Shown here piece after piece: positions 1,470-16,859 of a stretch of DNA of 36,900 nucleotides. Every line of letters starts with the position of its first letter. Within the stretch, counting starts at the first letter, position 1. The position numbers were made by a program, and so were the translations under genes. A model generated the notes under the pieces. It had not been told where the DNA came from. It did no database searches and saw only the letters and a list, made by a program, of their open reading frames with translations. This DNA is from a virus: positions 1-36,900 of IMG/VR virus record IMGVR_UViG_3300046543_001038, one strand, 5' to 3'.

Positions 1470-3890
1470 ATGGCCAAGAAGACCTCCAAGCAGACGGTCG
1501 CCGCCGTCCCCGAGCACGACCCCGTCGTATCGCAGGCGCTGCACTTCCTCGCCGACAACCCGGCGGTCTTCCAAGCGCTCTTCGCGCCGAGGACGCAGTT
1601 CGCGGCCCCGGACTCGAGCGCCCCCGCCGCGCTCTCGCGCCCGAAGGCGGGCAGCACGGTCCCGCAGGCGAGCGACGGCAAGAAGGCGCGCGCCGAGTCC
1701 CTGCCCCCCAAGGAGGGGTTCCCGCGCCCGAGCTTCCCGATCGCGGTCGCGCAGCAGGAGGACAACTCCCAGCTCTCCCCGCCCCCGCTCGTCGACCGCT
1801 ACCCCACGGTCGTCGGGGGCCAGCTCTCCTTCAACTACGTCGCCACCGTCGCGCGGCTCGCCACCACGGGCTACCGCCAGCAGGCGGTCGACCTCTGGAG
1901 GGAGCTGCTCGAGCAGGACCCGCACCTCTCCGCGGTCATGCAGAAGCGGATCCTCTCCGTCGCGAACGGGAAGCTCGAGTTCCTGCCCGCGGACCCGGAC
2001 TACGAGCTGGCGCAGTCCGCCTGCGATATGGTCAAGAAGGAGGTCGCCCGGATCCCGGACCTCACGCAGGCGCTCGTCACGCTGCTCTGGGCCCTCTACT
2101 ACGCGGTCCAGGCGAGCGAGATCATCTGGACGCGCGACGCCGACGGCTGGCACGTCGTGCGGCTCGACTTCGTGCACTCCCGCCGCATCGCGTGGCCGGA
2201 CATGCAGTCCTGGGACGCCTACATCTGGGACCAGGGACAGGTCTTCGGCTGGAACTCCCCCTGGGGCTCCACGCCCACCAACGCGGGCGTCTTCGGGCTC
2301 CGGCTCGCAGACTGGCCGGGCAAGTACGTCTTCTTCGCCCCGCAGCTCTTCGCCGACTACCCCACCAGGGACGGGCTCGCGCGGCAGCTCGCGATGTGGG
2401 CGCTCTTCAAGCGCGTCCCGGTCCGCGGCGCGATCGACTACCTCGAGAGGTTCGCCAAGGGCTTCCTCGACATCACGTTCACCACCCAGGCGGGGGACGA
2501 GCCTCGGTCAGCGACGGACGAGGACATCGGGGCCGCGCAGGGGCTCGCCAACGTGCTCGGCGCGGGCAACGGCCGCACGGTCACGCACCCGAACTCGATC
2601 AAGATCGAGCCGAAGTCCTTCGAGGGCGGCGGGGGCAAGGCGAAGCTCACGTGGAGCGAGTGGCTGGGGATCTGCAACTCCGAGATCTCGAAGCTCGTCC
2701 TCGGCGGTACGCTCGGCACCGAGGGGGCTTCCTCCGGCGGCAACGGATCACGCTCGCTGGGAGAGGTCCAGGAGCGGGCGGAGACGGACCTCGAGCAGTT
2801 CGACGCCACGGCGCTCGCGGAGTGCCTGCGGCGGGACCTCGTCACGGTCCTGATCCGGCTGAACATGCCGGAGGCGCTGGGAGTCGTCCCGCGGTGCCTC
2901 ATCCACATCGAGGCGGAGCCGGACGCGAAGAGCGTCGTCTCGAACGCCATCCAGCTCGCGGACCGGGGAGTGCCCCTCGACGCGGACGACGTGGCGCAGA
3001 AGGCGGGGCTCAAGTGCGTGCCGAACGAGCAGAAGGACGCCAAGGGGCGCCCGAAGCCGCGCCGCATGTTCAAGAGCGACTTCATCGACCCCTCGCTCGT
3101 CGACGACACCCTCATGTCCGAGGAGGCGAAGCAGTCGGCCCAGGACGACAAGGACGCCGCCAACGACCTGGCGATGCAGAAGGCTAAGCAGCCCGTCGTC
3201 TCCCCCATCGGGGCTCCTGGGGGCAAGCCCGCCCCGGCAAACGGCAACGGCAAGAAGGTCGCCCCGAAGCCCGCCAAGGCGAAGGTGGCTGCCAAGCCCC
3301 CCGCCAAGCCTGCCCCGAAGCCCGCTCCGGCGGGGAAGAAGAAGCTGGGGGACGACTCCCTCACGTTCCTGCTCTCCGCTCGCTCTACGGTCCTGAAGCT
3401 CGACTCCTACGAGGAGCGCACCGACAGGGACATCGTGCGGGAGGTCTACGAGATGCTGCTCGACGACTACCCGCCGAGCGCGCTCGACTGGGTGCTCGCC
3501 GCGAAGTGGGTCGGGCCGCTCGAGGTCCCGATGGCGGGCATCGACTTCTCGGAGCGCGAGACGTGGAGGGCCTCGCACGAGGACATCTCCTCCTACGTCG
3601 ACAAGCTCCGCGCCGCGCTCGCGGGCGGCAAGAAGCGCAAGCCGGCGGTCTTCGTGAAGACGCCGAGCAACCCGCTCGACCAGATCGTGGACGGGCACCA
3701 CCGCACGCTCTCCGCGGAGTCGCTCGGCGTGCCCGCCTGGGCCTACGTCGCCACCGTCTACGTGGACAACGGCCCGTGGTCGACGCTGCACGGGCGCCAG
3801 CTGGCCGGTTCCTCGAAGGAGGACGTGGTCGAGAACCCGTCCCTCATCTACGAGGAAGAGGACACGCACGACGACGAGGCGGCGGAGTAG
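1470..3890 (+). CDS. Portal protein (Mu gp29/DUF935-like) with C-terminal ParB-like domain
   Basis: This 806-residue protein is longer than ordinary portals. Residues about 90-540 look like the DUF935 (Mu gp29) portal: LWRELLEQDPHLSAVMQKR, then LVLGGTLGTEG and the helical stretch around RSLGEVQERAETDLEQFDA. The portal is the dodecameric ring at the head vertex that docks the terminase and the tail. Residues about 573-629 are a low-complexity Ala/Lys/Pro linker. Residues about 630-790 form a second domain with D741-G742-H743-H744-R745 in IVDGHHRTLSAESLG, followed by AYVATVYVDNGPWSTLH. This resembles the ParB/sulfiredoxin-fold domains found in some phage head proteins; its role there is not established. 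The ATG at 1470 has no Shine-Dalgarno sequence, only CCTCCTCCTAAG before it. The gene abuts the convergent DUF2158 gene with no gap. Confidence 0.88.
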   Translation: MAKKTSKQTVAAVPEHDPVVSQALHFLADNPAVFQALFAPRTQFAAPDSSAPAALSRPKAGSTVPQASDGKKARAESLPPKEGFPRPSFPIAVAQQEDNSQLSPPPLVDRYPTVVGGQLSFNYVATVARLATTGYRQQAVDLWRELLEQDPHLSAVMQKRILSVANGKLEFLPADPDYELAQSACDMVKKEVARIPDLTQALVTLLWALYYAVQASEIIWTRDADGWHVVRLDFVHSRRIAWPDMQSWDAYIWDQGQVFGWNSPWGSTPTNAGVFGLRLADWPGKYVFFAPQLFADYPTRDGLARQLAMWALFKRVPVRGAIDYLERFAKGFLDITFTTQAGDEPRSATDEDIGAAQGLANVLGAGNGRTVTHPNSIKIEPKSFEGGGGKAKLTWSEWLGICNSEISKLVLGGTLGTEGASSGGNGSRSLGEVQERAETDLEQFDATALAECLRRDLVTVLIRLNMPEALGVVPRCLIHIEAEPDAKSVVSNAIQLADRGVPLDADDVAQKAGLKCVPNEQKDAKGRPKPRRMFKSDFIDPSLVDDTLMSEEAKQSAQDDKDAANDLAMQKAKQPVVSPIGAPGGKPAPANGNGKKVAPKPAKAKVAAKPPAKPAPKPAPAGKKKLGDDSLTFLLSARSTVLKLDSYEERTDRDIVREVYEMLLDDYPPSALDWVLAAKWVGPLEVPMAGIDFSERETWRASHEDISSYVDKLRAALAGGKKRKPAVFVKTPSNPLDQIVDGHHRTLSAESLGVPAWAYVATVYVDNGPWSTLHGRQLAGSSKEDVVENPSLIYEEEDTHDDEAAE

Positions 3891-4526: not shown

Positions 4527-5150
4527 ATGAAGCCGTTCCGCATCCTCGCAGCCTCCGTGCTGGCCGCGTGCCTCTCGACCGCCGTCGTCACCGTGGCGTG
4601 CAGGCCGGCTCCTTCCGCGTCCTCGACGACCCCGCCCCCCGCGGCCTCCGCGCACAAGTTCGGGCTCGGCGTGAACAACACGAACGAGATCGGCAACCAG
4701 CTCGCGGAGCAGGGGCTCTTCGAGTGGCAGAAGAACTGGTCGGACGGGACGGACTCCGGGGGCAGCCTCGCGGAGATCGTGATCGACGGCATCGGCCCGG
4801 GCCCGATCAACATCCCGATCTCGCAGTGCCAGTTCGTCACGAGCGCCGCGCTCACGGCGAGCCAGACGACGTACGCGACGATCAACGTCTACAAGCGCCC
4901 GGGCAACAACCCGGACGGCGGGCTCGGCGCCACGCTCATCGCGTCGGCCTCGACGACGACCAACCAGGCAGACGCGGCGGCGGACGCGGCGTCCACCGGG
5001 AGCTGGTTCGCCTGGCAGAACGTCGTCGTCCCCGCCTCCGCGAACGCCTTCGTCGCCCCGGGCGACGTGATCACGGTCGCGATCACGAAGACGTCCACGG
5101 GCGTCGGCGTGCCGCAGGGCGTGCTCACCTGCTACACGACGATCCTCTAG
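4527..5150 (+). CDS. Secreted or lipid-anchored protein with a virion-like beta domain (207 aa)
   Basis: The N-terminus is a signal sequence: MKPFR, a hydrophobic run to about residue 24, then TVAC at 22-25, an imperfect lipobox. A Ser/Pro/Ala-rich spacer follows. The rest, from about residue 75, is a beta-rich domain with VTSAALTASQTTYATINVYKR, GSWFAWQNVVV and VAPGDVITVAITKTSTGVGVP. The pattern recalls beta-sandwich domains of phage structural or decoration proteins, here fused to a signal sequence. It may be an outer-membrane surface protein, for example in superinfection exclusion, or a virion protein with a fortuitous hydrophobic start. The ATG has a good ribosome-binding site (AAGGA, 9 nt upstream). 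It is the first gene after palindrome copy 2 and lies 11 nt upstream of the protease gene. Confidence 0.7.
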   Translation: MKPFRILAASVLAACLSTAVVTVACRPAPSASSTTPPPAASAHKFGLGVNNTNEIGNQLAEQGLFEWQKNWSDGTDSGGSLAEIVIDGIGPGPINIPISQCQFVTSAALTASQTTYATINVYKRPGNNPDGGLGATLIASASTTTNQADAAADAASTGSWFAWQNVVVPASANAFVAPGDVITVAITKTSTGVGVPQGVLTCYTTIL

Positions 5151-5161
5151 GCCCGACCCTC

Positions 5162-7576
5162 ATGACGGAGAAGGTCACGCTCGACCTCTCCGCGGGGGAG
5201 GTCCACACCCCGAGCACCATCGGCGTGCAGGGCTACGCGATCGGGAGCGCGACCCCGTCTCAGGACGGGACGTCGATGGTCCCGAAGAAGCCGTCCCCGA
5301 TCCACGGCCCGGTGGTGGACTCGGACCACGTCGCCTCCCTCGTCCTCGTGCAGGACCGGGAGGGGAGGCTCCTCACCGTCTCGCGCCCCGACCCGCCGCA
5401 TGAGCCCAGCATCCCAGGCGGGATGGTCGAGGACGGGGAGACCGCGTTCGCGGCAGGCGTCCGGGAGCTGAGGGAGGAGACCGGTGTAGACGTCGCGGAC
5501 CTCTCCCTCGTCGCCTCGGTGCGCTGCCCGCTTTCCAACCGCCTCGTGCGCGTCTTTCGCGCCGGCAGCTACTCCGGGACCGCCTCCGCGCTGGAAGCCG
5601 GTTCTAGGGTCGAGTGGATGGCCCCCGCCGCCCTCCTCGCGCAGGCGGGGCGCTACACGGACTCGATCAAGAAGCTGCTCCCGCTCTTCGGGGGCTACAA
5701 CGAAGGACCCTCGTTCGGCATGACTGACCCCAAGCAGGTGGCGAGCGAGAAGCGGAAGGCCGATCGACTTGCTCGCCGGAAGAAGACCGCCGCGGGACGC
5801 GGCAAGGGCACGATCCACGTTCGGGCGGACCTCGCTCCGGGAGGGGCACTGCACGTGAGGCACAACATGCGAGACGAGAAGACCTACTTCGCTCCGGACG
5901 GCTCCTGGGGAGTACGCTCTCTCGTGGGCGGCGAGTTCCTCCTCCGGGACTTCCGCCGCATCGCGGCCGAGCAGGAGATCGACCCCGCGGCCGTCGGCGT
6001 CCAGCTCGTCGGGAAGCCGACGTGGGCGGACGGCACGGCGAAGAAGCTCACCTGGGTGAAGCTCGCGCAGGTCGGCGCCTGGAAGGGCCACCCCGCGGGC
6101 GAGTTCGAGATGACGCCGGCCACGTTCTCCGAGATCAAGGCGAACTTCGAGGCGCGCGGGCTCCCGATCCAGTACGACATGGAGCACTATTCGGAGCTGT
6201 CCGCCGAGCAGATGGACCCAGAGAAGGGGGCGCCCTCCCACGGCTGGGTGCACCGGATGGACAACCGCGGCGTCGCGGGCCTCTGGGGCCTCACGGAGTG
6301 GCTCGATACGGCGCGGGACGGGATCAAGGAGGGCAAGTACGCCTTCCTCTCGCCCGCCATCCGATTCGGCTCGAAGGACACGGTCTCGGGCAAGAACATC
6401 GGCGCTCGCATGACGAGCGTGGCGATCACGAACCAGCCCTTCCTGACCGACCTCGGGCAGCTCCGCGCCGCGCGCCTCTTCGGGCTCTCGGAGATGATCG
6501 AATCGGGCTCGGTCGAGGGGACGTCTTCGATCTTCAACCTCGGGCTCGCGCACCACCCGACCGAGTACATGCCCAAGGTCCGGGCGTGCATGGGCCTGCA
6601 CCCGACGTCGACGGCGGCGGAGTGCCGGGACCGACTCGACACTATCCGCTCGCACTACGACGCGGACCAGGCGGGGGACCGGGACGGGAGCAACGAAGGC
6701 GTGAAGCTCTCCGAGCACCTCCTGCCCTTCCGCGACATGTTCGGCGACTCCTCCCTCGGCATGACCTGGGACGAGGTCCTCGACAAGGTCCAGGACATGA
6801 TCGACGCCTCGATGGACGAGCACGTCGCCACGATGCACCCCGGGGCCGCGTCGATGACCGACAAGCTCCCCGCCGACACGCAGACCCCCGCAACCACCAC
6901 GGAGAACGACGAGATGGACCCGAAGCTGCTCAAGGACGCCCAGGACAAGGCGACGGCGTCTGAGGACAAGGCGAAGGCGCTCGAGGCCGAGAAGACCGCG
7001 CTCGAGGCGCAGGTGACCACGCTCACCGACAAGGTGAAGGCCGGCGAGGCGTCCGTGAAGAGCGCCGACGCGGCGAACGCGGACCTGCTCGAGATCGTGA
7101 CCGCCGTGAGCACCGTCGCGCTGAAGGACGAGATGCCGAAGGCGGTCGTCCTCCGCCTCGTCGAGGAGAACAAGGTCCTCCTGACCGCGAAGGCGGCCCG
7201 GGAGGAGGCGGACCTCGAGCGCGACGTGCAGATCGCGAAGGAGACCTGGCAGGACTCCCGGAAGCTCTCGGACAAGGACTTCGCGAAGGGCGACGGCAAG
7301 GCGAAGAAGGACGGCTGGGTGATGACCCTCGCGCGTAACGACCGCGCGTCCTTCAACGAGACGTTCCCCCCGGTTCCGGTCGGGGAGCGCCACCTCCTGC
7401 GCACCATCACGCCGGTCGAGGAGCGCCCGAAGCCCGAGAAGGTCCCCGCGTCCTCGACCGAACTGACCGCCAAGCTGATGTCCGACAAGGGGCTGAGCTA
7501 CTCCGACGCCTGCTCGGAGGCCTCCGCGATCATCGCGAACAAGAAGACCTACGAGTCGATCCCCTCGAAGAAGTAG
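5162..7576 (+). CDS. Nudix domain fused to Mu I-like capsid protease and scaffold (804 aa)
   Basis: Three parts are visible. Residues about 55-180 are a Nudix hydrolase domain with a complete Nudix box: G87, E93, R101-E102, E105-E106 and G108 (G-x5-E-x7-R-E-x2-E-E-x-G), preceded by SIPGG. Such enzymes hydrolyse nucleoside diphosphates linked to another moiety. Residues about 290-445 match the phage I-like (Mu gpI) head maturation protease, with YDMEHYSE, GWVHRMDNRGVAGLWG, YAFLSPAIRF and VAITNQPFL. Residues about 585-660 are an Ala/Lys/Glu coiled coil typical of scaffold, followed by a charged tail ending TYESIPSKK. An extra segment at about 460-560 (HHPTEYMPKVRACMGLHP) is not recognised. The start is the ATG at 5162, just after the upstream stop. 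The capsid gene follows 61 nt downstream, as expected for a protease that processes it. Confidence 0.88.
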   Translation: MTEKVTLDLSAGEVHTPSTIGVQGYAIGSATPSQDGTSMVPKKPSPIHGPVVDSDHVASLVLVQDREGRLLTVSRPDPPHEPSIPGGMVEDGETAFAAGVRELREETGVDVADLSLVASVRCPLSNRLVRVFRAGSYSGTASALEAGSRVEWMAPAALLAQAGRYTDSIKKLLPLFGGYNEGPSFGMTDPKQVASEKRKADRLARRKKTAAGRGKGTIHVRADLAPGGALHVRHNMRDEKTYFAPDGSWGVRSLVGGEFLLRDFRRIAAEQEIDPAAVGVQLVGKPTWADGTAKKLTWVKLAQVGAWKGHPAGEFEMTPATFSEIKANFEARGLPIQYDMEHYSELSAEQMDPEKGAPSHGWVHRMDNRGVAGLWGLTEWLDTARDGIKEGKYAFLSPAIRFGSKDTVSGKNIGARMTSVAITNQPFLTDLGQLRAARLFGLSEMIESGSVEGTSSIFNLGLAHHPTEYMPKVRACMGLHPTSTAAECRDRLDTIRSHYDADQAGDRDGSNEGVKLSEHLLPFRDMFGDSSLGMTWDEVLDKVQDMIDASMDEHVATMHPGAASMTDKLPADTQTPATTTENDEMDPKLLKDAQDKATASEDKAKALEAEKTALEAQVTTLTDKVKAGEASVKSADAANADLLEIVTAVSTVALKDEMPKAVVLRLVEENKVLLTAKAAREEADLERDVQIAKETWQDSRKLSDKDFAKGDGKAKKDGWVMTLARNDRASFNETFPPVPVGERHLLRTITPVEERPKPEKVPASSTELTAKLMSDKGLSYSDACSEASAIIANKKTYESIPSKK
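6914..7576 (+). CDS. Possible internal-start scaffold protein (220 aa)
   Basis: An in-frame ATG at 6914 has GGAG nine bases upstream. The product would be only the coiled-coil scaffold part of the protease-scaffold gene, starting MDPKLLKDAQDK. In Mu (I and Z) and lambda (C and Nu3), scaffold is made from an internal start of the protease gene. The same arrangement is inferred here and is not proven by sequence alone. Confidence 0.5.
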   Translation: MDPKLLKDAQDKATASEDKAKALEAEKTALEAQVTTLTDKVKAGEASVKSADAANADLLEIVTAVSTVALKDEMPKAVVLRLVEENKVLLTAKAAREEADLERDVQIAKETWQDSRKLSDKDFAKGDGKAKKDGWVMTLARNDRASFNETFPPVPVGERHLLRTITPVEERPKPEKVPASSTELTAKLMSDKGLSYSDACSEASAIIANKKTYESIPSKK

Positions 7577-7637: not shown

Positions 7638-8759
7638 GTGCCCATCGCAGTGAAAGACCTCGAAGGGGAGGTCCGATTCTACATCGACGGCGAGGTCGCC
7701 AAGGACGCCAACGGGAAGACCGTCGCCGAGCCCTCCTCCCTCCGCGACCTGAAGGACGACGAGAAGCTCGCCACGCTCGGCAACCTCCTCCTGAGGGACC
7801 GCGCCGGCACCCCGGAGGGCAAGCAGGTGCTCCTCGACCTCGCCCCCGGGGACGTCGCCACCGCGAAGACGGTCGCCGAGTTCGGCGCCTACGTCGACGG
7901 GTGCATCGCGGACGAGGTCTGCGCCCCGATGTTCGTCCCGCACGACCGCGGGGTCTGGTACGTCGAGAGCCCGCTCGACATCATCCGGATCGCGGCCCCC
8001 TACGCGGACGGCACCGGCTCCCCCCCGGTGGTGAGCCCGAGCTTCAAGCAGTCGACCTTCATCACGAACCAGTACGCGCTCGCGGTGAAGCTCCCTCGGC
8101 GCACGGTGACGAACGCGGACTGGGACCTGAAGGCTCGCGCCCTCCGCTTCCTCATCGAGGCGCTGCGCGTGCGGCGGGAACTCCGGGTCGCGACCCTGCT
8201 GATGGCCACCGCCACATGGAACGCAGCGAACCAGATCACGGTGGCGGCGGGCGCGCAGTGGAACGGCGGCCCCGGCGCGGACCCGCTCAACGACGTCTTC
8301 CTCGCGCGGGCCGCGGTGACGATGCCGGCGACGCACCTCATCATCTCGGAGAACGTCGCCCCCTACTTCTTCGCCCCCGGCGCGAACTCCCGCGTGAGGG
8401 ACTTCGTCCAGGCGGGGGGGAAGCTGCCGAATGTCCTGCAGGCGGGCGCGCTCTACGCGAACGCCGGGGTGAACGCCTACGTCTGGGGGACCTTCAAGGC
8501 GGGGGTCACCCCGGTGAACGTTCCCCTCATCAGGGTCTCCCCCGACCCGACGATGATCCAAACCGCGCGCACCTTCCGCTGGCTCGGCGACGGCGCCTCG
8601 CCCGACGGGGTCCGCAAGGAGGGCGTGCTCGTGCGCTCCTTCTTCGACCCGCGCGACGAGTGCGACTGGATCGTCTGCTCCTACAACGACTTCGACACGC
8701 TGCTCACGCCGAACTCGGCGCAGCAGGCGGGGTCGCTCATCGTCGGCGCGCTCCAGTAG
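7638..8759 (+). CDS. Major capsid protein 1 (HK97-fold candidate, 373 aa)
   Basis: The gene lies directly after the protease-scaffold gene. The start is a GTG at 7638 with AAGGAA upstream. The N-terminal 100 residues are charged and could be a delta-domain removed by the protease. The middle and C-terminal part (IEALRVRRELRV from about residue 172; AAGAQWNGG; NVYVWGT-like NAYVWGT; TARTFRWLGDGASPDG at about 308; LVRSFFDP) is clearly homologous to the second capsid-like protein at 9376. This shared part is likely the HK97-type shell fold. Position, size and the adjacent decoration protein support the call. Which of the two paralogues makes most of the shell cannot be told. Confidence 0.8.
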   Translation: MPIAVKDLEGEVRFYIDGEVAKDANGKTVAEPSSLRDLKDDEKLATLGNLLLRDRAGTPEGKQVLLDLAPGDVATAKTVAEFGAYVDGCIADEVCAPMFVPHDRGVWYVESPLDIIRIAAPYADGTGSPPVVSPSFKQSTFITNQYALAVKLPRRTVTNADWDLKARALRFLIEALRVRRELRVATLLMATATWNAANQITVAAGAQWNGGPGADPLNDVFLARAAVTMPATHLIISENVAPYFFAPGANSRVRDFVQAGGKLPNVLQAGALYANAGVNAYVWGTFKAGVTPVNVPLIRVSPDPTMIQTARTFRWLGDGASPDGVRKEGVLVRSFFDPRDECDWIVCSYNDFDTLLTPNSAQQAGSLIVGALQ

Positions 8760-8861: not shown

Positions 8862-9287
8862 ATGGCCGCAACTGATTTCCAGACCGCACGCATCCCGCTC
8901 GGCGTCCAGGAGTTCCCCGTCAAGAACACGGACGCCGTCGCGATGGTGACCGGTCAGGTCGTGAAGCTCGACACGGCCCACCTCATGAGCGCCTCCCAGG
9001 GCCAGGTCGGCGTCCTCCTCTGCACCGTCGTCACGGACCGCCCCCTCGGGATCGTGATCGAGGCTATCCCGGTCAACGGGCAGGGCCGGATGCAGATCGT
9101 CGGCGCGGCCTGGGCCATCGCCGCAGCCGCCATCACGGCGGGCTCGGTCGTCGGGGCATCCGGCGCCACTGCGGGCGACGTGATCGCCTACACCGCGACG
9201 GACCCGTACATCGGCGTCGCGCTCACGGCGGCGGTCAACGCGGCCGACCCCGTTCTCGTCCTCATCCAGCCGGGCACCACGGCGTAG
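8862..9287 (+). CDS. Head decoration / capsid cement protein (DUF2190-like, 141 aa)
   Basis: This small, Ala/Val/Gly-rich beta protein has the style of capsid cement proteins such as DUF2190: VAMVTGQVVKLDTA near the start, repeated 'GDV'-type turns (ATAGDVIAYT), and an ending with IGVALTAAVNAADPVLVLI. These proteins bind the outside of the expanded shell and stabilise it against internal DNA pressure. The gene sits between the two capsid paralogues, which strengthens the call. Its ATG follows CAGGAG with a short spacer. The 102-bp gap upstream shows no clear promoter or terminator. Confidence 0.7.
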   Translation: MAATDFQTARIPLGVQEFPVKNTDAVAMVTGQVVKLDTAHLMSASQGQVGVLLCTVVTDRPLGIVIEAIPVNGQGRMQIVGAAWAIAAAAITAGSVVGASGATAGDVIAYTATDPYIGVALTAAVNAADPVLVLIQPGTTA

Positions 9288-9375: not shown

Positions 9376-10707
9376 ATGTCGCAGCTCATGTTGCTCCGTG
9401 ACGTCCCGCTCCCCAGCCAGGGGGACGACAACTTCGGCCTCACGCAGAGGCAGGAGTTCGTAGACCTCGACTCCGGCAAGGTCTACGAGGACGCGGAGGG
9501 CGTCCGCTTCCTCCGCCAGATGCACGAGGTCGACCACGTCGTGACCGGGAACAAGACCGGGTCGCGCGCGGTCACGGTGAAGGACGAGAACGGGCGGAAG
9601 ATCCACAACTCGCAGATCTCTGACGCGGCGGCGCTCCACTACGCGGACAAGCGCGTCCTCTCGACGGGTCGCCGGGAGAAGTTCTCCGGGCGCGGCGTCC
9701 AGATGAACATCAAGCAGGCGGAGGCGTACGACCGCCTCTTCAACATGGACCTCGCCCCGAGCGACGTCCACACGAACAGCGCGCTCCCGACGTACGCGGC
9801 CGGCTACCGGATCGCGGACGGGATGGCGGACGTCGCCTCCCCGGTCATCCTCACGCCGAAGCAGGCGGACGTCTTCTACACCTGGAACCAGAACTCCGAC
9901 TTCCAGCGCAAGCTCCCCGTCGCGGGCGCCCCCGGCGCGGGCTACGGAGAGGTGAACCCGGCGCTCTCCCCGAGCACCTTCACGACGGTCCAGTACACGC
10001 TCGGGGGCTTCATGCCGACCGAGGTGGTCGCGAACGCGGACACCCCGATCCGCCCCTTCGTCAAGCTCACGCAGGTCGTCATCGACGCCCTCCGCCTCGA
10101 GCGCGAGTACCGCGTCGCCGCGGGCCTGCAGACGAGCGGCAACTGGAACGCCGGCAACGTCACCACGCTCCTCGCCGGGGCGCAGTGGAACGGCGGCGGC
10201 GCCAGCGACCCGATCTTCAACCTGCACAAGGCCATCGAGTCCTCGTACCTCCCCGTCACGGGCATCCTCTGGAGCGAACTGGTCGAGCACGACTTCGTGC
10301 GGAACCCGAACGTCCAGAAGTACTTCACGTACAAGGACACGGTCGACGGGATCCCCGACCCGCAGAAGATCTCCTCCACGCTCCGCCTCCCGCCGATCTA
10401 CACGGCGATGATGAAGTACGTCACGGGCTCGACCCTCACGTACGTCTGGGGCAACCACGTCGTGCTCCTGCACAACACGGGCGACCTCTCGAGCCAGATG
10501 GACGTCGCGACGGCGCGCACCTTCCGCTGGAACGGCGCCGAGGGCGCGACGCCGGACGGGACGCTCTCCGCGGGCTTCCTCGTGCGGACCTTCTTCGACC
10601 CGAAGCGCGGCGCGCGCGGCGGGACGCAGGTGGTCGTGGTGCACTCGGACACCGAGGTGCAGACCTCCGGCTACGCCGGGGCCCTGATCCTGAACGCACA
10701 CATATGA
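9376..10707 (+). CDS. Major capsid protein 2, paralogue of the first (443 aa)
   Basis: From about residue 234 this protein aligns with the capsid protein at 7638: VIDALRLEREYRVA, NWNAGN, AGAQWNGG, TYVWGNH, TARTFRWNGAEGATPDG and LVRTFFDP occur in the same order and at similar spacing. It is about 70 residues longer, mainly at the N-terminus. The ATG has AAGGAA at a good distance. It may be a second shell subunit, a specialised vertex subunit, or the main capsid protein with the other serving a minor role. Its 3' end runs straight into two strong hairpins and palindrome copy 3, so it looks like the last gene of a capsid block. Confidence 0.8.
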   Translation: MSQLMLLRDVPLPSQGDDNFGLTQRQEFVDLDSGKVYEDAEGVRFLRQMHEVDHVVTGNKTGSRAVTVKDENGRKIHNSQISDAAALHYADKRVLSTGRREKFSGRGVQMNIKQAEAYDRLFNMDLAPSDVHTNSALPTYAAGYRIADGMADVASPVILTPKQADVFYTWNQNSDFQRKLPVAGAPGAGYGEVNPALSPSTFTTVQYTLGGFMPTEVVANADTPIRPFVKLTQVVIDALRLEREYRVAAGLQTSGNWNAGNVTTLLAGAQWNGGGASDPIFNLHKAIESSYLPVTGILWSELVEHDFVRNPNVQKYFTYKDTVDGIPDPQKISSTLRLPPIYTAMMKYVTGSTLTYVWGNHVVLLHNTGDLSSQMDVATARTFRWNGAEGATPDGTLSAGFLVRTFFDPKRGARGGTQVVVVHSDTEVQTSGYAGALILNAHI

Positions 10708-10811: not shown

Positions 10812-11324
10812 ATGTCGAAATTCAAGCTGATCGTCGCCTCGTGCATGCCCGACCCCGAGGGGCTCTCGACGGAGCCGGTGCACTACGCGGCGGGGACCGT
10901 CCTCTCCCTCTCGGACGAGGACGGCGCGCGAGCGTTCGCCCAGGGCGCCGCGGTGCCGTTCGGGCACGACGGGTGCCCCGAGTGCGAGAAGCAGGGCCGC
11001 CCGTGTACCATCGAGTGCTGGCGCGGGTTCGGGGAGAAGGACGAGGACTACTTCCCCGCGATGGTCGCGCACGAGGACCGCAAGCGGGAGGCGGCGTTCC
11101 GCGCCCGCTCGCAGCCTTCCCAGGAAGGTCCTCCTGTCGGGCATACCATTTCCGACGAATGGACGAACAACGGTCCCTCGGTGGACATCACCGCTCCCTC
11201 CTCCACCACGGAGGTCCCCTCCCTCACCGCCGTCACTACGGGGGACCTTACGGCCACTCCCGACCCGGTCTCACCCCCCGTCTCGAGGGGGCGCAAGCCC
11301 TCCGAGACCCCGCCCTCGACCTGA
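10812..11324 (+). CDS. Hypothetical protein, 170 aa, with a cysteine cluster
   Basis: I do not recognise the family. The first 60 residues are a compact segment (MSKFKLIVAS, YAAGTVLSLSDEDGARAFA) and could form a small alpha/beta domain. It is followed by a cysteine cluster, GCPECEKQGRPCTIEC, near residues 56-71, a likely zinc site. The C-terminal third is Ser/Thr/Pro-rich and probably disordered. The start ATG at 10812 has GGGAG 12 nt upstream; an in-frame ATG inside the palindrome at 10788 is an alternative. It is the first gene of the head-completion block. A structural or assembly role is inferred from position only. Confidence 0.65.
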   Translation: MSKFKLIVASCMPDPEGLSTEPVHYAAGTVLSLSDEDGARAFAQGAAVPFGHDGCPECEKQGRPCTIECWRGFGEKDEDYFPAMVAHEDRKREAAFRARSQPSQEGPPVGHTISDEWTNNGPSVDITAPSSTTEVPSLTAVTTGDLTATPDPVSPPVSRGRKPSETPPST

Positions 11325-11358
11325 GCGCGCCATCTAGGGAGGGGAGGAGTAACCAACC

Positions 11359-11799
11359 ATGTCCAGGAAGCTAGCAGCAGCACCCGCGGAGAAGACCACC
11401 CAGGCGAGCCCCGCCTCGAACGTCCCCCGCATCACCAAGAAGCTCCCGCGCGAGACGGACTTCCAGCGCGTCGCGAAGGAGAGCAACCTCGCGGGCGTCT
11501 ACCGCATCATCACGAGCAACGTGATGGTCCCCCGCCCCGAGAGCGAGTGGAAGGACGAGGACGGCAAGCACCGCCCGGGGGAGCCCACCCTCGAGCTGGC
11601 GCAGCCCGGCGACGAGGTCTACCTCGGCAACGAGGACGCGATGCGCCTCCTCGCCCAGGACATCGTCGAGGAGATGAACGCCTACCCCTCCCGCGTGGGG
11701 AAGGTCTTCACGCCCCCGAAGGTCGCCCACAACATGAACGCCGCGCCGGGGGAGAAGGCTCCCCAGTACCCGCCGCCCGCGCACGGCTCGGTCATCTGA
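11359..11799 (+). CDS. Hypothetical virion-module protein, 146 aa
   Basis: The protein starts with a basic, Ala/Pro-rich region and then has a folded segment (FQRVAKESNLAGVYRI, EPTLELAQPGDEVYLGNEDAMRLLAQDIVEE). The 'LAQPGDEVYLGNEDA..LL' pattern is seen in small phage head proteins that lie between capsid and connector genes, but I cannot name a family. A strong ribosome-binding site (GGGAGGGGAGGAG) precedes the ATG. The stop codon overlaps the ATG of the next gene (TGATG), so the two are translationally coupled. Confidence 0.65.
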   Translation: MSRKLAAAPAEKTTQASPASNVPRITKKLPRETDFQRVAKESNLAGVYRIITSNVMVPRPESEWKDEDGKHRPGEPTLELAQPGDEVYLGNEDAMRLLAQDIVEEMNAYPSRVGKVFTPPKVAHNMNAAPGEKAPQYPPPAHGSVI

Positions 11800-12029
11800 T
11801 GCCCGCCCCCGGGAGGACGAGCACCGTCATCAACGCGGCGCTCGTCCTCTACGGGCAGTCCGTGTTCGGGCCCGACGCCGCAGCGTACGGGCGGGGCAGC
11901 GAGAAGGGCGGGAGCGCGCAGTTCGAGGAGGTGGCGGACGAGATCCTCTCTTCCGACGCGAGCCCGAACTGCGTAGAGGTCGTGAGGCGCGCGGTCCGCC
12001 GCGCGGTCCGCCGCGCGGGCCGGCGGTGA
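11799..12029 (+). CDS. Small hypothetical protein, 76 aa, basic C-terminus
   Basis: A short frame held between coupled neighbours: its ATG overlaps the previous stop and its stop overlaps the GTG of the next gene. The first 60 residues look like a globular segment (TVINAALVLYGQSVFGPDAAAY, EEVADEILSSDASPNCVEVV). The end is an Arg-rich repeat, RRAVRRAVRRAGRR. The coding case rests mainly on the tight overlaps and matching codon bias. Function unknown. Confidence 0.55.
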   Translation: MPAPGRTSTVINAALVLYGQSVFGPDAAAYGRGSEKGGSAQFEEVADEILSSDASPNCVEVVRRAVRRAVRRAGRR

Positions 12030-12547
12030 CGGAGTCGATCCTCCAGGGGGAGGACCTCACCACCTACTCGACGTTCGACGACGTGACGGCGGAGTTCACC
12101 CCGACGACGCTCGGGCAGCTCTGCGGTGACGACGGCAACCTCGTCATCGCGGCGGGCAACCCGGCGCTCGTGCGGGCGCGGAAGAACGCGCACGCCGAGA
12201 TCACCTCGAACCTCGCGCCCGTCTACGGGGCGGGGGGGATGCCGCAGGTGCAGCCCGGGCACGTCTCCGAGCTGCTGAAGACCGCCGAGCTGGCCTACGT
12301 CCGATATTTCCTCTACGCGAGGAAGCCGGAGATGGCGGCGAAGATCGGGGAGAAGTACCTCGAGCAGCTCTGGAAGTTCGCCGAGACGCGGGCGGACCGG
12401 ATCAAGTCCGCGATCCAGGAGATCTCGCCGAACGACAACCCGCCGCCGGAGCCCCCCGCGAACGTGGGCGGGTTCACGAAGGACAAGGGACCGAAGCTGA
12501 GCGGAGACGACGGCACCGGCGGGCCCATGAACATGGGCGACTATTGA
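12026..12547 (+). CDS. Head-tail connector, Mu gp36-like (DUF1320), 173 aa
   Basis: The protein follows the pattern of DUF1320/gp36: an early TLGQLCGDDGN, the helix NPALVRARKNAHAEITSNLAPVY, and then LLKTAELAYVRYFLYARKP. This is the family's D-x-A-x3-I-x3-L and 'aYrYlL' arrangement. In Mu this protein sits between capsid and tail genes and is thought to act in neck assembly. The C-terminal 40 residues are Pro/Gly/Asp-rich and probably flexible. The GTG start overlaps the upstream stop (GTGA). Confidence 0.75.
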   Translation: MTESILQGEDLTTYSTFDDVTAEFTPTTLGQLCGDDGNLVIAAGNPALVRARKNAHAEITSNLAPVYGAGGMPQVQPGHVSELLKTAELAYVRYFLYARKPEMAAKIGEKYLEQLWKFAETRADRIKSAIQEISPNDNPPPEPPANVGGFTKDKGPKLSGDDGTGGPMNMGDY

Positions 12548-12564
12548 CCCACCAGGAAATAAGA

Positions 12565-13047
12565 ATGAAGACCGCAATCGCAGCAGTAGCCGTGCTCGCG
12601 GTGATGCTCGCCGCGATAGCGGCGCTCGTCTTCGTCGCGTCGAGCCCCCTCCACGACGAGCCGCCCTCGACGGTGACCCACCGCATGGGGGCGATCAATC
12701 CGGTGAACGGCTCCCCGAACTTCAACGACCCGGTCATCACCGGGGGTATCTGCCTCGACACGGAGCCGCAGCCGCTCGCGTACGTCGACGCCTCCCTCTC
12801 GGACGGCGGGACGCAGGACGGGGGCTGGTACGCGGACGCCGGGGCCGGCAGGATCCCGAAGGCGCTCCTCCTCGCGTGCAGCGGCACCACCGCGAACGTG
12901 GCGGTGGACATGCTCGGCTTCGGCGGGAAGCCCGGGCAGACGAACGTGGTGCTCACGGGGGTCGCCTGCGGGGTGCCTCTGCCTTTCGCCGTAACGAAGG
13001 TCTACCAGGTAGGCACCACGGCCACGACCGTACAAATTTGCTACTAG
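12565..13047 (+). CDS. Signal-anchored hypothetical protein, 160 aa
   Basis: The N-terminus is a clear membrane or signal segment: MKTAIAAVAVLAVMLAAIAALVFVA. After it comes a Gly/Asp-rich beta-type region with DASLSDGGTQDGG and DAGAGRIPKA, and spaced cysteines (GGICLD, LLACSG, VACGV, QICY) that could form disulphides outside the cytoplasm. I do not recognise a family. AGGAAA stands 8 nt before the ATG. The gene sits inside the head-completion block, although the protein looks exported. The 'DGG/DAG' style is frequent in secreted proteins of myxobacteria. Confidence 0.6.
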   Translation: MKTAIAAVAVLAVMLAAIAALVFVASSPLHDEPPSTVTHRMGAINPVNGSPNFNDPVITGGICLDTEPQPLAYVDASLSDGGTQDGGWYADAGAGRIPKALLLACSGTTANVAVDMLGFGGKPGQTNVVLTGVACGVPLPFAVTKVYQVGTTATTVQICY

Positions 13048-13057
13048 TGGGGCCCCG

Positions 13058-13411
13058 ATGAAGACGAGCATCTACGCGGATCAGTTCGCGATCGTGGGGG
13101 ACGGGTTCCCGAACGCGCAGCCGTGGACGTCGGGGCAGATCGTGAACACCCCGACCCCCGCCTACGAGGCGAACTGGGTCCTCACGGTAGGCTCGAATCA
13201 GCTCGCGGTGCCCCCGGGCACGCTCTGGATGAAGGTGATCTCGGGACCCAGCGGCGCGGCGAAGACGTGGCGGGGTGGGACGATCGCGGACGCGGGGACG
13301 AGGATGCACCCGACCTACGCCTCGACGTTCTGGTTCGACCCCCTCGCGCTCCCGGCGACCGTCTACATCACGGCGACGGCGAACGAGACCGTCTACGTGG
13401 TCTGCGGATGA
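13058..13411 (+). CDS. Hypothetical beta-rich protein, 117 aa
   Basis: A small protein with alternating beta-strand patterns and aromatic residues (WVLTVGSNQLAVPPGTLWMKVISG, STFWFDPLALPATVYITATANETVYVV). It has no signal peptide. The size and style suggest a virion component such as a decoration or head-fibre piece, but this is inference. It follows the signal-anchored gene by 10 nt and has GGGG upstream of its ATG. Confidence 0.6.
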   Translation: MKTSIYADQFAIVGDGFPNAQPWTSGQIVNTPTPAYEANWVLTVGSNQLAVPPGTLWMKVISGPSGAAKTWRGGTIADAGTRMHPTYASTFWFDPLALPATVYITATANETVYVVCG

Positions 13412-13432
13412 GCCTGCGGCATAGCTAGTCGC

Positions 13433-13858
13433 ATGAGCGCATGGGAGAAGCCGGGCCCTGACCTCGCCACATCGGAGTGGAGGGAGAAGGTCTGCGCGAT
13501 CTGCTGCTCCTGCAACCTCCCCCTCCGCTTCATGGAGGGTCCGCTCTGCGACGCCTGCCTCGACCTCGACGAGGTCCGCCCGGTGCGCGACAAGTACTAC
13601 GGGGTGAAGAGCGTCGATAAGAACCGGGTGGCCGAGGAGCGGCGGCTCGCGGAGGATGAGACCCGGTACTGCGAGGAGGGCTGGTGGGACGAGTTCCGCG
13701 GCTTCTCCGACGACCCGGGGGAGAGCGGTGTCCGCCCGTCCCTCCGGAGCACGCTGCAGGTCGACATGTGCTGCCTCGGGCGGATCGTGCTCTGCCTCCC
13801 CCGCAAGAGCACGATGGACACGATGCGGGACGGGCTGCGGCCCCAGAAGGCGCGCTGA
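13433..13858 (+). CDS. Hypothetical zinc-ribbon-like protein, 141 aa
   Basis: The N-terminal part contains VCAICCSCNLPLRF and then LCDACLDL. These paired C-x2-C motifs at residues about 21-45 would fit a small zinc ribbon. The middle is charged with several Trp and Tyr residues (YCEEGWWDEFRGF). The C-terminus is hydrophobic then basic. No family is recognised. It lies 21 nt after the previous gene and 12 nt before the gp10-like gene. Confidence 0.6.
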   Translation: MSAWEKPGPDLATSEWREKVCAICCSCNLPLRFMEGPLCDACLDLDEVRPVRDKYYGVKSVDKNRVAEERRLAEDETRYCEEGWWDEFRGFSDDPGESGVRPSLRSTLQVDMCCLGRIVLCLPRKSTMDTMRDGLRPQKAR

Positions 13859-13870
13859 GGGAGGTCTCCC

Positions 13871-14329
13871 GTGGGCTACGCGAAGTCGGACACGTCTCGG
13901 TGCCGGCACGCGCTCCGGGGACTGCTCGGTGAGGTCGAGTGGGCCGTGCGCGACGCGGTTGAGACCGGGGGCAGGGTCGCCGAGGTGGCGGCCCGCCAGA
14001 CGACGGCGTGGAAGGACCGCAGCGGCAAGACCCGCAAGACGATCCGCTACTCGAGCTGGAAGCAGGGCTTCGGCTTCAAGCTGACGGGCAAGGGCGCGAG
14101 CCTCTTCCTGGAGGGCGGGACCGCGGCGCACCTCATCACCTCGGAGAATGGCAAGATGCTCCGCTTCGTGATCGGCGGGACGGTCTTCTACCGGGCGAGC
14201 GTCTACCACCCTGGGACGAAGGCGACGTTCTTCCTCGAGCACGCGGTGGTCGAGGGCGCGCAGACGGTCTCCCGCAACCTGCCGAGGCTCATCGCGCGCG
14301 CGGCGCAGAAGCGGGGACTCGGGGGATGA
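13871..14329 (+). CDS. Neck / tail-completion protein, HK97 gp10-like, 152 aa
   Basis: The order SLFLEGGTAAHLI, then LRFVIGGTVFYRASVYHPGTKATFFLEHA, followed by a C-terminal amphipathic helix, is the signature of the HK97 gp10-like family. The 'GT.aH.i' and 'v.HPGtka..Fl..A' motifs are both present. These small proteins join the connector to the tail. The start is a GTG at 13871 with GAGG upstream. The stop overlaps the ATG of the next small gene. Confidence 0.8.
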   Translation: MGYAKSDTSRCRHALRGLLGEVEWAVRDAVETGGRVAEVAARQTTAWKDRSGKTRKTIRYSSWKQGFGFKLTGKGASLFLEGGTAAHLITSENGKMLRFVIGGTVFYRASVYHPGTKATFFLEHAVVEGAQTVSRNLPRLIARAAQKRGLGG

Positions 14330-14487
14330 GCAGGTCGAGGCACAACGGGTGCGGGCGCAAGGCATGCGGAGTCTGCCGCCCCCACAAGAAGTGGAAGAAG
14401 AACTCCGTCTCGAACGAACGGCCGTCGGTCCGCCGGAGGCTCCAGGAGCCAGTGAATGACGGACGAGGAGAGGAAGCGAGAAGCTGA
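14326..14487 (+). CDS. Small basic protein, 53 aa, with CxxC motif
   Basis: The ATG overlaps the upstream stop (ATGA) and has GGGG before it. The product begins MSRSRHNGCGRKACGVCRPHKKWKKN and so has three closely spaced cysteines in a basic context, suited to a nucleic-acid-binding knuckle. Similar tiny proteins occur between phage neck genes. The end overlaps the MuF gene by 32 nt in another frame, which lowers certainty. Confidence 0.5.
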   Translation: MSRSRHNGCGRKACGVCRPHKKWKKNSVSNERPSVRRRLQEPVNDGRGEEARS

Positions 14488-15064
14488 GGTCGCGGCTGCC
14501 GCGCTCCTGCTCCTCTCGAAGCGCGCCACGCACACGATCCAGCTCGCCCTCCTCGGGGCGGCGCGTAGGGGCTCCTCCGCCCCGCTGCTCGCGACCCGGG
14601 ACGACGTCGAGGCCTCCGTAGCCAAGGCGGTCGCGGGTGCCCGTTCCGGCGCCCAGGCGCTCGCTGGCGAGGCTTTCGCCCGGCAGACGGGGGTTAGCCC
14701 CTCCTCGACCCGCAGGGCCCTAGGAACGGGTCGCGACGCCTCCGGCTCCCTCGCGGACCAGTGGGCGACGCGGGCGGAGGTGGGAGACTCCTTCGAGCAG
14801 GCGGCGCGGGACCTCGACTGGGCGGCTGCTCGCACGGCGAAGACGGAGGTGTTCTCGGAGTACTCGCTCGAGTCCCGGGAGGCGTTCGACTCGCTGGCGG
14901 CCAAGGGCGTGCGCGCGGTGCGGATCTGGAAGGCCCAGCTCGAGGCGTGCCCGATGTGCAGGCCGCTCCACGACACGGAGGCGGACGCCTTCGGGCAGTT
15001 CCCCTACGGGGACCCCCTGCTGCACGTGAACTGCATGTGCTTCGTCATCACGGAGGTCCGGTGA
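14456..15064 (+). CDS. MuF / SPP1 gp7-like minor head protein, 202 aa
   Basis: The C-terminal half matches the Phage_Mu_F domain. There is a helix with ARTAKTEVFSEYSLESREAF, then VRIWKAQLEACPMCRPLHDTEAD and finally DPLLHVNCMCFVITEV. This is the family's 'W...D..CP.C..L..' and 'HpnCrC' pattern. MuF proteins are minor head proteins injected or bound near the portal. In Mu and SPP1 the gene directly follows the portal gene; here it lies about 10.5 kb further on, in the connector block. At about 200 residues it is short, containing little beyond the C-terminal domain. Confidence 0.8.
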   Translation: MTDEERKREAEVAAAALLLLSKRATHTIQLALLGAARRGSSAPLLATRDDVEASVAKAVAGARSGAQALAGEAFARQTGVSPSSTRRALGTGRDASGSLADQWATRAEVGDSFEQAARDLDWAAARTAKTEVFSEYSLESREAFDSLAAKGVRAVRIWKAQLEACPMCRPLHDTEADAFGQFPYGDPLLHVNCMCFVITEVR

Positions 15065-15423
15065 GCAAGGGAGTCTTCGAGCTGCTCCTCGAGCGCGCGG
15101 GTCGGCTCCGGACTGCGGGAGCCACCATCTCGGAGGTCCCCGCGCTCACGCCGGAGGACGACCTGACGCTGAAGGGGCTCGCCCGCGTGATGAGGGAGTA
15201 TACCGACCTCCCGCGACACGCCGCGCTCCGCATGGGGGAGGTAGTCACCCCATTCACGAATCGCGAATCGGCGAGGGTCTCCATCCAGGTCCTGAAGCCG
15301 TGCAAGCGCGGGCTCCCGCTCTCGACGGTGACGTTCCGCGGGAGGAGCGTGGCGGAGGCGGCGCACGAGGCAAAGCGCTTCGTCGAGTCGATCCTCCCCT
15401 GCGACGCCCCGGACGGTTCATAA
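15061..15423 (+). CDS. Hypothetical protein, 120 aa
   Basis: The GTG start overlaps the MuF stop (GTGA), and the codon bias matches the neighbours. The protein is mixed alpha/beta with LLLERAGRLRTAG, TLKGLARVMREYTDLP and the ending VAEAAHEAKRFVESIL. No family is recognised. The stop codon TAA lies inside palindrome copy 4, so gene end and palindrome overlap by six bases. Confidence 0.65.
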   Translation: MSKGVFELLLERAGRLRTAGATISEVPALTPEDDLTLKGLARVMREYTDLPRHAALRMGEVVTPFTNRESARVSIQVLKPCKRGLPLSTVTFRGRSVAEAAHEAKRFVESILPCDAPDGS

Positions 15424-15435
15424 ATCGATTTATGA
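15418..15435. repeat. 18-bp palindrome, copy 4
   Basis: Identical TCATAAATCGATTTATGA. It overlaps the end of the 120-aa gene. It runs into GAGGTGAG, which is the ribosome-binding site of the GTG at 15445. The right flank GGTGAG is shared with copy 6 only. Confidence 0.9.
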
Positions 15436-15444
15436 GGTGAGTAC

Positions 15445-16296
15445 GTGACCGAGCCCCTAGTCCCCCCGCGGGTAGTCCCGCTCGACGCGCAGGGGGACGG
15501 GAGCACCTCCCTCTGGGGCGGGCTCTTTCTGCCGATGGGGCAGGGCCCGGTCGGCGTCGCGCCCCTCCCGGACTGGGCCCCGCACGGGGAGCTGCTCCGG
15601 GACGCGGACCCGGCGCGCTTCTACGCGATCGACTTCCTCGTCTGGACCCTCTGCTTCAATTTCTCGCAGCGGCTCGCGGTCGCAGGGAAGTCGGTGGCGC
15701 GCCCGATCCCTCAGGCGGTGAAGTCCGTCGGGCTCGTCGACCCCGTGCCGTTTATGGTCGAGGAGTCGTCGCAGTTCGACTACCCCCTCCTCTGCGTCTA
15801 CCGCCGCCGGAGTACCCCGGGGCAGGTGACGGTCAACTACCCGTTCCGCACCTCCCGCTGGGAGATCCGCTACGTCCTCCCCTCCCTCGGCTTCGATGCG
15901 GCCTCCCGCCTCACCCCGATATTCGAGGCGGTCGAGGCGTCCATCGAGGACATGGTCTGGAAGGGCTACCACCCGCAGTACGCGCCCCCGGGCGGCACGG
16001 TCGGCCAGCTCGTCTTCCAGAAGGCGGGGATGATGGAGGTCGAGACGATGGACTCCGCCTGGGAGTACGTCGACACGGACGGCGGGGGGATCGTCCACGC
16101 GATGCTGAAGCTCGAGTGGGACGTGAAGGTCCGCAAGATGGACGTCCTCACCCCTCCCGGCGCCACCACGGTGCGCGGCGCGCCCGTGCCCTTCTCCGGC
16201 GCCGACGCGACGATCTCGATCGCGGCGGAGGGCGGCGACCCCTCCCCCGTCCCGATCGTGACCCTGAAGACCGACGGCCCCGCCTCCGGCACCTGA
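15445..16296 (+). CDS. Putative tail terminator / head-tail joining protein, 283 aa
   Basis: The gene lies between the connector genes and the sheath, where tail terminator proteins are found. The central part has FDYPLLCVYRRRS, then YPFRTSRWEIRYVLPSLG and LTPIFEAVEASIEDMVWKG. A 'reported units, R.ei.v..' strand pattern followed by a long helix is consistent with tail terminators, but similarity is weak. The C-terminal 60 residues (GAPVPFSGADATIS onward) look like an added beta segment. GTG start with GAGGTGAG upstream, directly after palindrome copy 4; it is the first gene of the sheath-tube block. Confidence 0.55.
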   Translation: MTEPLVPPRVVPLDAQGDGSTSLWGGLFLPMGQGPVGVAPLPDWAPHGELLRDADPARFYAIDFLVWTLCFNFSQRLAVAGKSVARPIPQAVKSVGLVDPVPFMVEESSQFDYPLLCVYRRRSTPGQVTVNYPFRTSRWEIRYVLPSLGFDAASRLTPIFEAVEASIEDMVWKGYHPQYAPPGGTVGQLVFQKAGMMEVETMDSAWEYVDTDGGGIVHAMLKLEWDVKVRKMDVLTPPGATTVRGAPVPFSGADATISIAAEGGDPSPVPIVTLKTDGPASGT

Positions 16297-16334: not shown

Positions 16335-16859
16335 ATGGGCCGCAACGTTCACGCGAAGATGCGCGAGGCAGCCGCGGAGGCGTCGACGACGCTCAAGGTC
16401 CTCTACCGCCACGGGCTCGTGACGAACTTCGAGGCGATGAAGGCGGGCATCCGCAAGTTCGTCGGCGTCTCGATGTGCCACGACCGGGACGAGAAGGGCG
16501 ACCCCTGCGGCGACCACGGGAGCTTCCTCACCACGGACCTCCCCGAGGAGCTGCCGCAGACGAAGGAGTACCTGATGGCCATCTGCGAGGGCCACCTCGC
16601 CGCGATGGACGAGCCCACCGCGCGCCGGGCCGCCGCCTACGGCAAGTGCGAGTGGTCCACCCTGATGGCGACCGCCGAGGAGCTGAAGCTCGCGGCGGAC
16701 ACGCGGTCGGCGATCGACAAGGCTGACGCGGAGCTGGTCCGCAAGGCGAAGGTCAGCCTCTCCCCCGCCAACCCGGTGAAGGACCCCTCGAAGGACCTCC
16801 TCCCGAAGGTGGTCGCTCCCGATCCCGCGCTCCCCTCTTCGACCCTGAAGACCGCCTAG
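16335..16859 (+). CDS. Hypothetical protein, 174 aa, possible zinc binder
   Basis: The N-terminal half is helical (MREAAAEASTTLKVLYRHG). It is followed by a Cys/His-rich segment, MCHDRDEKGDPCGDHG, and later ICEGH, which together could hold a zinc ion. The C-terminal 40 residues are Pro/Lys/Ser-rich. It precedes the sheath gene by 48 nt. An AAGGA sequence stands before its ATG. No family is recognised; a tail-assembly role is only a positional guess. Confidence 0.6.
   Translation: MGRNVHAKMREAAAEASTTLKVLYRHGLVTNFEAMKAGIRKFVGVSMCHDRDEKGDPCGDHGSFLTTDLPEELPQTKEYLMAICEGHLAAMDEPTARRAAAYGKCEWSTLMATAEELKLAADTRSAIDKADAELVRKAKVSLSPANPVKDPSKDLLPKVVAPDPALPSSTLKTA

Follow-up and report, generated by a model that had tools for sequence, protein, structure and literature searches.

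A Nudix hydrolase domain, a Mu I-like protease of apparently assemblin-like fold and a Z-like scaffold are encoded by one and the same reading frame at positions 5162–7576 of the window, the whole 36.9-kb stretch of DNA that constitutes the analysed IMG/VR virus record. The gene belongs to a phage with a contractile, sheath-bearing tail and encodes its head maturation protease and scaffold, which are of the Mu I/Z type; the fusion probably loads the Nudix domain into the virus particle. The gene and its main parts are the following:

5162–7576, plus strand: Nudix–head maturation protease–scaffold fusion gene, 804 aa (ORF, Pfam, PHROGs, and orthologues at 7131–9407 of contig L047 and 774–3050 of contig L050)
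5327–5683, plus strand: Nudix domain, aa 56–174 (Pfam PF00293, 61.8 bits)
5420–5488, plus strand: Nudix box G87–V109, GMVEDGETAFAAGVRELREETGV, its signature residues all retained in L047
6032–6481, plus strand: maturation protease core, aa 291–440, with D339, H342 and S397 invariant (Pfam Mu-like_Pro, alignments A2 and A7, AF2 model)
6914–7576, plus strand: Z-like scaffold of 220 aa, with a candidate start nested in frame (ATG, M585, GGAG at 9 nt), start and SD being identical in L047

The frame runs from ATG 5162 to TAG 7576 over 804 codons with no internal stop, and third-codon-position GC is high over its entire length (0.76–1.00 per 50 codons), which fits a single continuous coding frame. 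Among the PHROGs, the 804-aa protein matches head maturation protease (E 1e-22) as well as Nudix families. Two Pfam domains lie well above their curated cut-offs, namely NUDIX at aa 56–174 (E 1e-15; PF00293 at 58–62 bits against a cut-off of 21.1) and Mu-like_Pro (PF10123, Mu-like prophage I protease) at aa 308–498 (E 3e-20; 73.4 bits against 25.2). An earlier sequence-only reading had delimited the gene exactly, and its description of a complete Nudix box (given as residues 87–108; the full signature lies at aa 87–109) standing in one uninterrupted frame with a Mu I-like protease and a coiled-coil scaffold is borne out by these matches and by the charged, coiled-coil-like character of the C-terminal 220 aa.

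Within the protease, D339 and H342 (of a D-x-E-H motif) and S397 (the Ser of a YxxLSP motif) are invariant throughout alignments A2 and A7. The AF2 model is confident over aa 271–425, with pLDDT values mostly between 80 and 92 in the core, and comparison of this model with PDB folds (VIA) returned herpesvirus maturation proteases in all of the first 23 rows. The best of them aligned over 118 residues at 3.0 Å with a Z score of 7.3, the first unrelated row having a Z of 4.4; as the best score stays below 8, the match to the assemblin fold is to be read together with the sequence match. A search of a viral structure library with the protease likewise returned prohead proteases and scaffolds. Taken at the level of the model, the protease thus has an assemblin-like fold. 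In an HMM search of the C-terminal 220 aa, no profile named the scaffold part. Mu-like phages usually have the scaffold nested within the protease gene (PMC2628397). The candidate nested M585 start and its SD are also found in L047, 4-mer SD coincidences being common (two observed sites, P 0.064).

The Nudix domain apparently represents an intact hydrolase, carried as a passenger on the N-terminus of the protease. Every signature position of the pattern GX5EX7REUXEEXGU is present at aa 87–109, and likewise in L047. The two phages differ at nine of the 23 box positions, and all of these changes spare the fixed residues of the catalytic signature (chance P 0.006), which suggests that the catalytic signature has been selectively retained while other box positions changed. 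The best sequence matches of this domain are NudG/MutT-like and ADP-ribose pyrophosphatase-like; matches in NCBIfam are all far under the cut-offs, with a MutT/NudG-like profile first and NudE and NadM also listed. The nearest solved relatives are the CTP pyrophosphohydrolase of E. coli (NudG) and an ADP-ribose pyrophosphatase of Thermus. Structure prediction, proposed earlier as a check, supports the protease part as described above; over aa 1–195 the AF2 model has pLDDT values mostly below 50, because the alignment is shallow, and Foldseek on the Nudix part listed NudC and RppH only at E values of about 0.3–1.

Close relatives of the phage were found using the portal and the second capsid protein as baits. 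The same three-part ORF is complete in L047 and in L050 (758 aa, 58% protein identity to the window; 99.96% DNA identity to each other), and a third contig (L048) carries it truncated at the 5′ end. Between the window and L047, identity amounts to 56% in the Nudix part, 57% in the scaffold and 70% in the protease. The NG86 dN/dS values of 0.6 for the Nudix part and 0.36 for the protease are only rough, since strong codon bias depresses dS. In 18 more distant protease loci, from Helicobacter, Campylobacter, Neptunomonas, Oceanospirillum and viral contigs, no Nudix box was found anywhere; these loci encode standalone proteases of about 260–380 aa, one of which (L018) is interrupted. A scan of 398 Pseudomonadota genomes, in which two candidates per genome were scored, gave no match spanning both domains among the matches listed. 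Viral scans with the single full protein or the protease alone yielded standalone Nudix genes only, or nothing; an alignment of 12 protease sequences proved too diverse for use as a scan query.

That the distant relatives possess the protease gene only would be expected if two separate genes had been merged here through a sequencing or assembly error. Such an error is ruled out by the orthologues in independent contigs: the identical join recurs in other metagenome contigs at 58% identity, and third-position GC runs through it continuously, so that we give this explanation practically no credence. The sequence-only reading had also envisaged that Nudix and protease frames might always be separate in relatives. 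The opposite was found, as the Nudix-bearing relatives are fused and the Nudix-free ones have no Nudix nearby.

The fusion ORF is located between the portal gene and two major capsid genes, and the order portal–protease/scaffold–major capsid is that of Mu I-like head maturation protease loci. The window also contains a tail sheath gene. The neighbouring head genes are these:

1470–3890, plus strand: Mu-type portal (Portal_Mu E 1e-51) with a ParB-like DGHHR domain at its C-terminus (about 3540–3780)
7638–8759, plus strand: major-capsid-like protein 1, MCP1 (phrog_1005), with motif LLDLAPGDVATA at nt 7830–7865
8862–9287, plus strand: phage cement protein, between both capsid genes (Pfam Phage_cement_2 E 5e-4, just below the cut-off)
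9376–10707, plus strand: major capsid protein 2, MCP2 (phrog_1005 E 4e-26), with motif NMDLAPSDVHTN at nt 9742–9777

The DGHHR domain of the portal is conserved in L047, whose copy matches several ParB PHROGs (best E 5e-4), the window copy alone reaching only E 0.25. The AF2 model of the portal C-terminus has a pLDDT of 36, and the ParB-like assignment therefore rests on the HMM matches of the L047 copy and on the DGHHR motif. If this is correct, the phage would have a second head protein that bears a foreign domain. MCP1 and MCP2 are paralogues (32% identical) with the cement gene between them in both phages, possibly reflecting a vertex/hexamer split like that of T4 gp24/gp23. Between the portal and protease genes lies a putative lipoprotein (4527–5150; signal sequence and Cys), only 47% identical in L047 and with a palindrome of its own upstream; it is possibly a surface or exclusion protein. 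This 16-bp palindrome, CATAAATCGATTTATG, occurs in seven exact copies in the window (at 1441, 4477, 10775, 15419, 20191, 25022 and 34692; expected 0), mostly in short intergenic gaps about 25–50 nt ahead of a gene start. L047 has a different palindrome-like element, CGAAAACCAGTTTTCAAG, repeated at 922, 3815, 6421, 9416 and 10618, at corresponding gene borders, and both sets of repeats resemble phage-specific dispersed operators of the stoperator type. In a distant terminase relative (L056), a triple fusion of portal, 2H phosphoesterase and MuF is encoded at 11299–15753, and an 801-aa ORF at 16421–18826 matches Phage_capsid with its C-terminus and, weakly, a maturation protease with its N-terminus.

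A short motif is shared by the capsid proteins and the fusion. DLAP[GS] occurs three times in the 35 predicted proteins of the window (10,307 aa; expected 0.06), in MCP1, in MCP2 and in the linker between the Nudix and protease parts, and it is restricted to the same three proteins in the relatives. As the capsid proteins are paralogues, the linker copy is the sole independent occurrence. In the four capsid sequences of the two phages, xDLAP[GS]DVxT stands out as the best-conserved stretch of the N-terminal part. Alignment of the paralogues becomes possible at this very point (aa 66 of MCP1 and aa 124 of MCP2), where their alignable shell domain begins and where one would expect an N-terminal propeptide to be removed. 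A score for this candidate cleavage motif was built from these capsid sites of only two phages. When the fusion was scanned with it, the top three matches fell at homologous places in both phages, at domain borders: before the Nudix domain (aa 6), in the Nudix/protease linker (aa 221) and at the protease/scaffold border (aa 565). These sites, together with the linker and a possible internal start, are located as follows:

5177–5212, plus strand: N-terminal capsid-like motif TLDLSAGEVHTP, aa 6–17, candidate processing site; the best match of the ORF (P 0.003; L047 P 0.002)
5801–5869, plus strand: invariant linker peptide GKGTIHVRADLAPGGALHVRHNM, aa 214–236, containing DLAPG, between Nudix and protease; candidate processing site, 23/23 residues identical to L047
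5855–7576, plus strand: Nudix-free protease-scaffold from a possible internal start (GTG, V232, SD GGAGG at 10 nt), kept in L047
6854–6889, plus strand: third motif-like site MTDKLPADTQTP, aa 565–576, at the protease/scaffold border; second best in the window ORF (P 0.003)

The match in the linker is partial and weak on the capsid-site score in both phages (P 0.2 as the second-best site of L047), and the aa 565 site ranks third, and weak, in L047. The three border motifs are accordingly put forward as candidate self-processing (maturation) sites, which would free the Nudix domain within the head; the suggestion that the domain is cut free during maturation thereby gains some sequence support. 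The shared motif could alternatively be a docking peptide.

The linker itself is under constraint. Between the window and L047, dN is 0.018 and dS 0.97 over aa 214–236, which means that the constraint acts on the peptide; the flanks are only 30% identical upstream and 50% downstream. The in-frame GTG at V232 with GGAGG at 10 nt is present in both phages (P 0.014 against synonymous reshuffles), and the lowest third-position GC of the gene is found in both at or beside the invariant linker and possible internal start. Since start and SD are conserved in both phages, a second product, a Nudix-free protease-scaffold beginning at 5855, is possible. An invariant 23-aa linker might also hint that the Nudix module together with the linker serves as a prodomain or regulates assembly, holding the protease inactive or in position until the prohead closes, with enzyme activity being secondary. 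In T4, the protease gp21 is kept inactive by residues at its own N-terminus until self-cleavage activates it (PMC9958956). The related proteases retrieved, however, lack any N-terminal module, and the catalytic signature of the Nudix domain is selectively retained; we regard this explanation as very doubtful.

Of the explanations considered, we favour a role of the fusion in carrying the Nudix domain into the particle. The observation at its base is that the Nudix domain is covalently fused to a core head protein, in one ORF whose order is kept in the orthologue. The C-terminal scaffold would bring the whole fusion protein into the prohead. Once the shell has assembled, the protease would strip the N-terminal propeptides from both capsid proteins at xDLAP[GS]DVxT and would cut its own polypeptide at the similar border sites. 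A free Nudix domain of about 23 kDa (about aa 8–225) would then stay in the head, be ejected with the DNA and, in the new host, hydrolyse a nucleoside-diphosphate-linked substrate, such as a defence signal derived from ADP-ribose or NAD. Initiation at V232 may yield a second, Nudix-free protease, in which case only part of the protease copies would carry cargo. For this full sequence of scaffold-driven packaging, border cleavage, retention of the Nudix domain and ejection to act in the host, we consider the chances evenly balanced. A more elaborate version, in which one gene gives rise to three nested products (Nudix-protease-scaffold, protease-scaffold and scaffold) and a single recognition sequence governs both capsid trimming and Nudix release, seems to us rather improbable; translation would then determine the dose of cargo, and capsid maturation its release.

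The Nudix enzyme could instead act within the cell that makes the phage, or inside the prohead ahead of DNA packaging; it would then be a late housecleaning or nucleotide-signal hydrolase, fused only for co-expression and not delivered to the next host. The phage Nudix proteins retrieved outside the fusion family are mostly standalone, the uncut protein could have activity in the cytoplasm, and the conserved internal start may already provide a Nudix-free protease. Fusion is nevertheless unnecessary for co-expression, and yet it has been retained over a divergence to 58% identity; moreover, the maturation proteases of known systems go into proheads, as in T4 (PMC9958956). We hold this possibility to be unlikely.

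T4 offers a parallel for the individual steps. About 55 copies of its prohead protease gp21 enter the prohead core, where the N-terminus is self-cleaved, while other core proteins (Alt and the internal proteins) are trimmed, losing only small N-terminal peptides, and IPI is injected (PMC9958956). Unlike in the present fusion, enzyme cargo and protease are separate proteins in T4. The Mu-like I/Z protease-scaffolds of DMS3, SuMu, KS10 and the Helicobacter and Campylobacter prophages resemble the fusion in protease homology, in the C-terminal scaffold and in their place upstream of the major capsid gene, and KS10 has a nested scaffold start comparable to the candidate one here, but they lack the Nudix domain and the 230-aa N-terminal extension present here.

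Fusions of this general kind have been described before. A 2022 survey of viral NAD+/ADP-ribose systems notes that MuF, the portal and the serine peptidase that processes the capsid each carry a fused Nudix domain in some of several phages, and suggests injection (PMC9503650, section 3.5.2). The domain pair is generally alike, as is the proposal of packaging and injection; the statement there takes up one sentence, which names no Mu I-like case. The survey distinguishes T4 NudE-like and NadM-like clades of phage Nudix proteins; NudE and NadM profiles occur among the NCBIfam matches of the present Nudix domain, but far under the cut-offs and after the MutT/NudG-like profile. In Burkholderia phage Bcep781, gp17 similarly joins a Nudix domain to a structural head protein; there, however, it sits on the C-terminus of the portal, and the head maturation protease, gp14, is separate and of another family (DUF2213). 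The view that the arrangement is not a known one was thus mistaken: in the light of gp17 and of the fusions reported in that section of the survey, it is not unprecedented. In a free-text literature search, no study of a Nudix domain on a prohead protease was found beyond PMC9503650. What is new here is that conservation, N-terminal position, candidate nested starts and candidate processing sites have been worked out. Polyvalent phage proteins carry host-directed domains on portal or MuF proteins (PMC5512222), and the present phage likewise has a ParB-like domain on its portal, whereas the Nudix cargo is borne by the maturation protease.

If the proposed model is true, a head maturation protease would double as a cargo carrier with built-in release, and the model makes a definite prediction of the sequence motif that a protease of this Mu-like type would cut. 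Phages would also have a way of loading enzymes that degrade nucleotides or ADP-ribose, directed against host defences upon infection.
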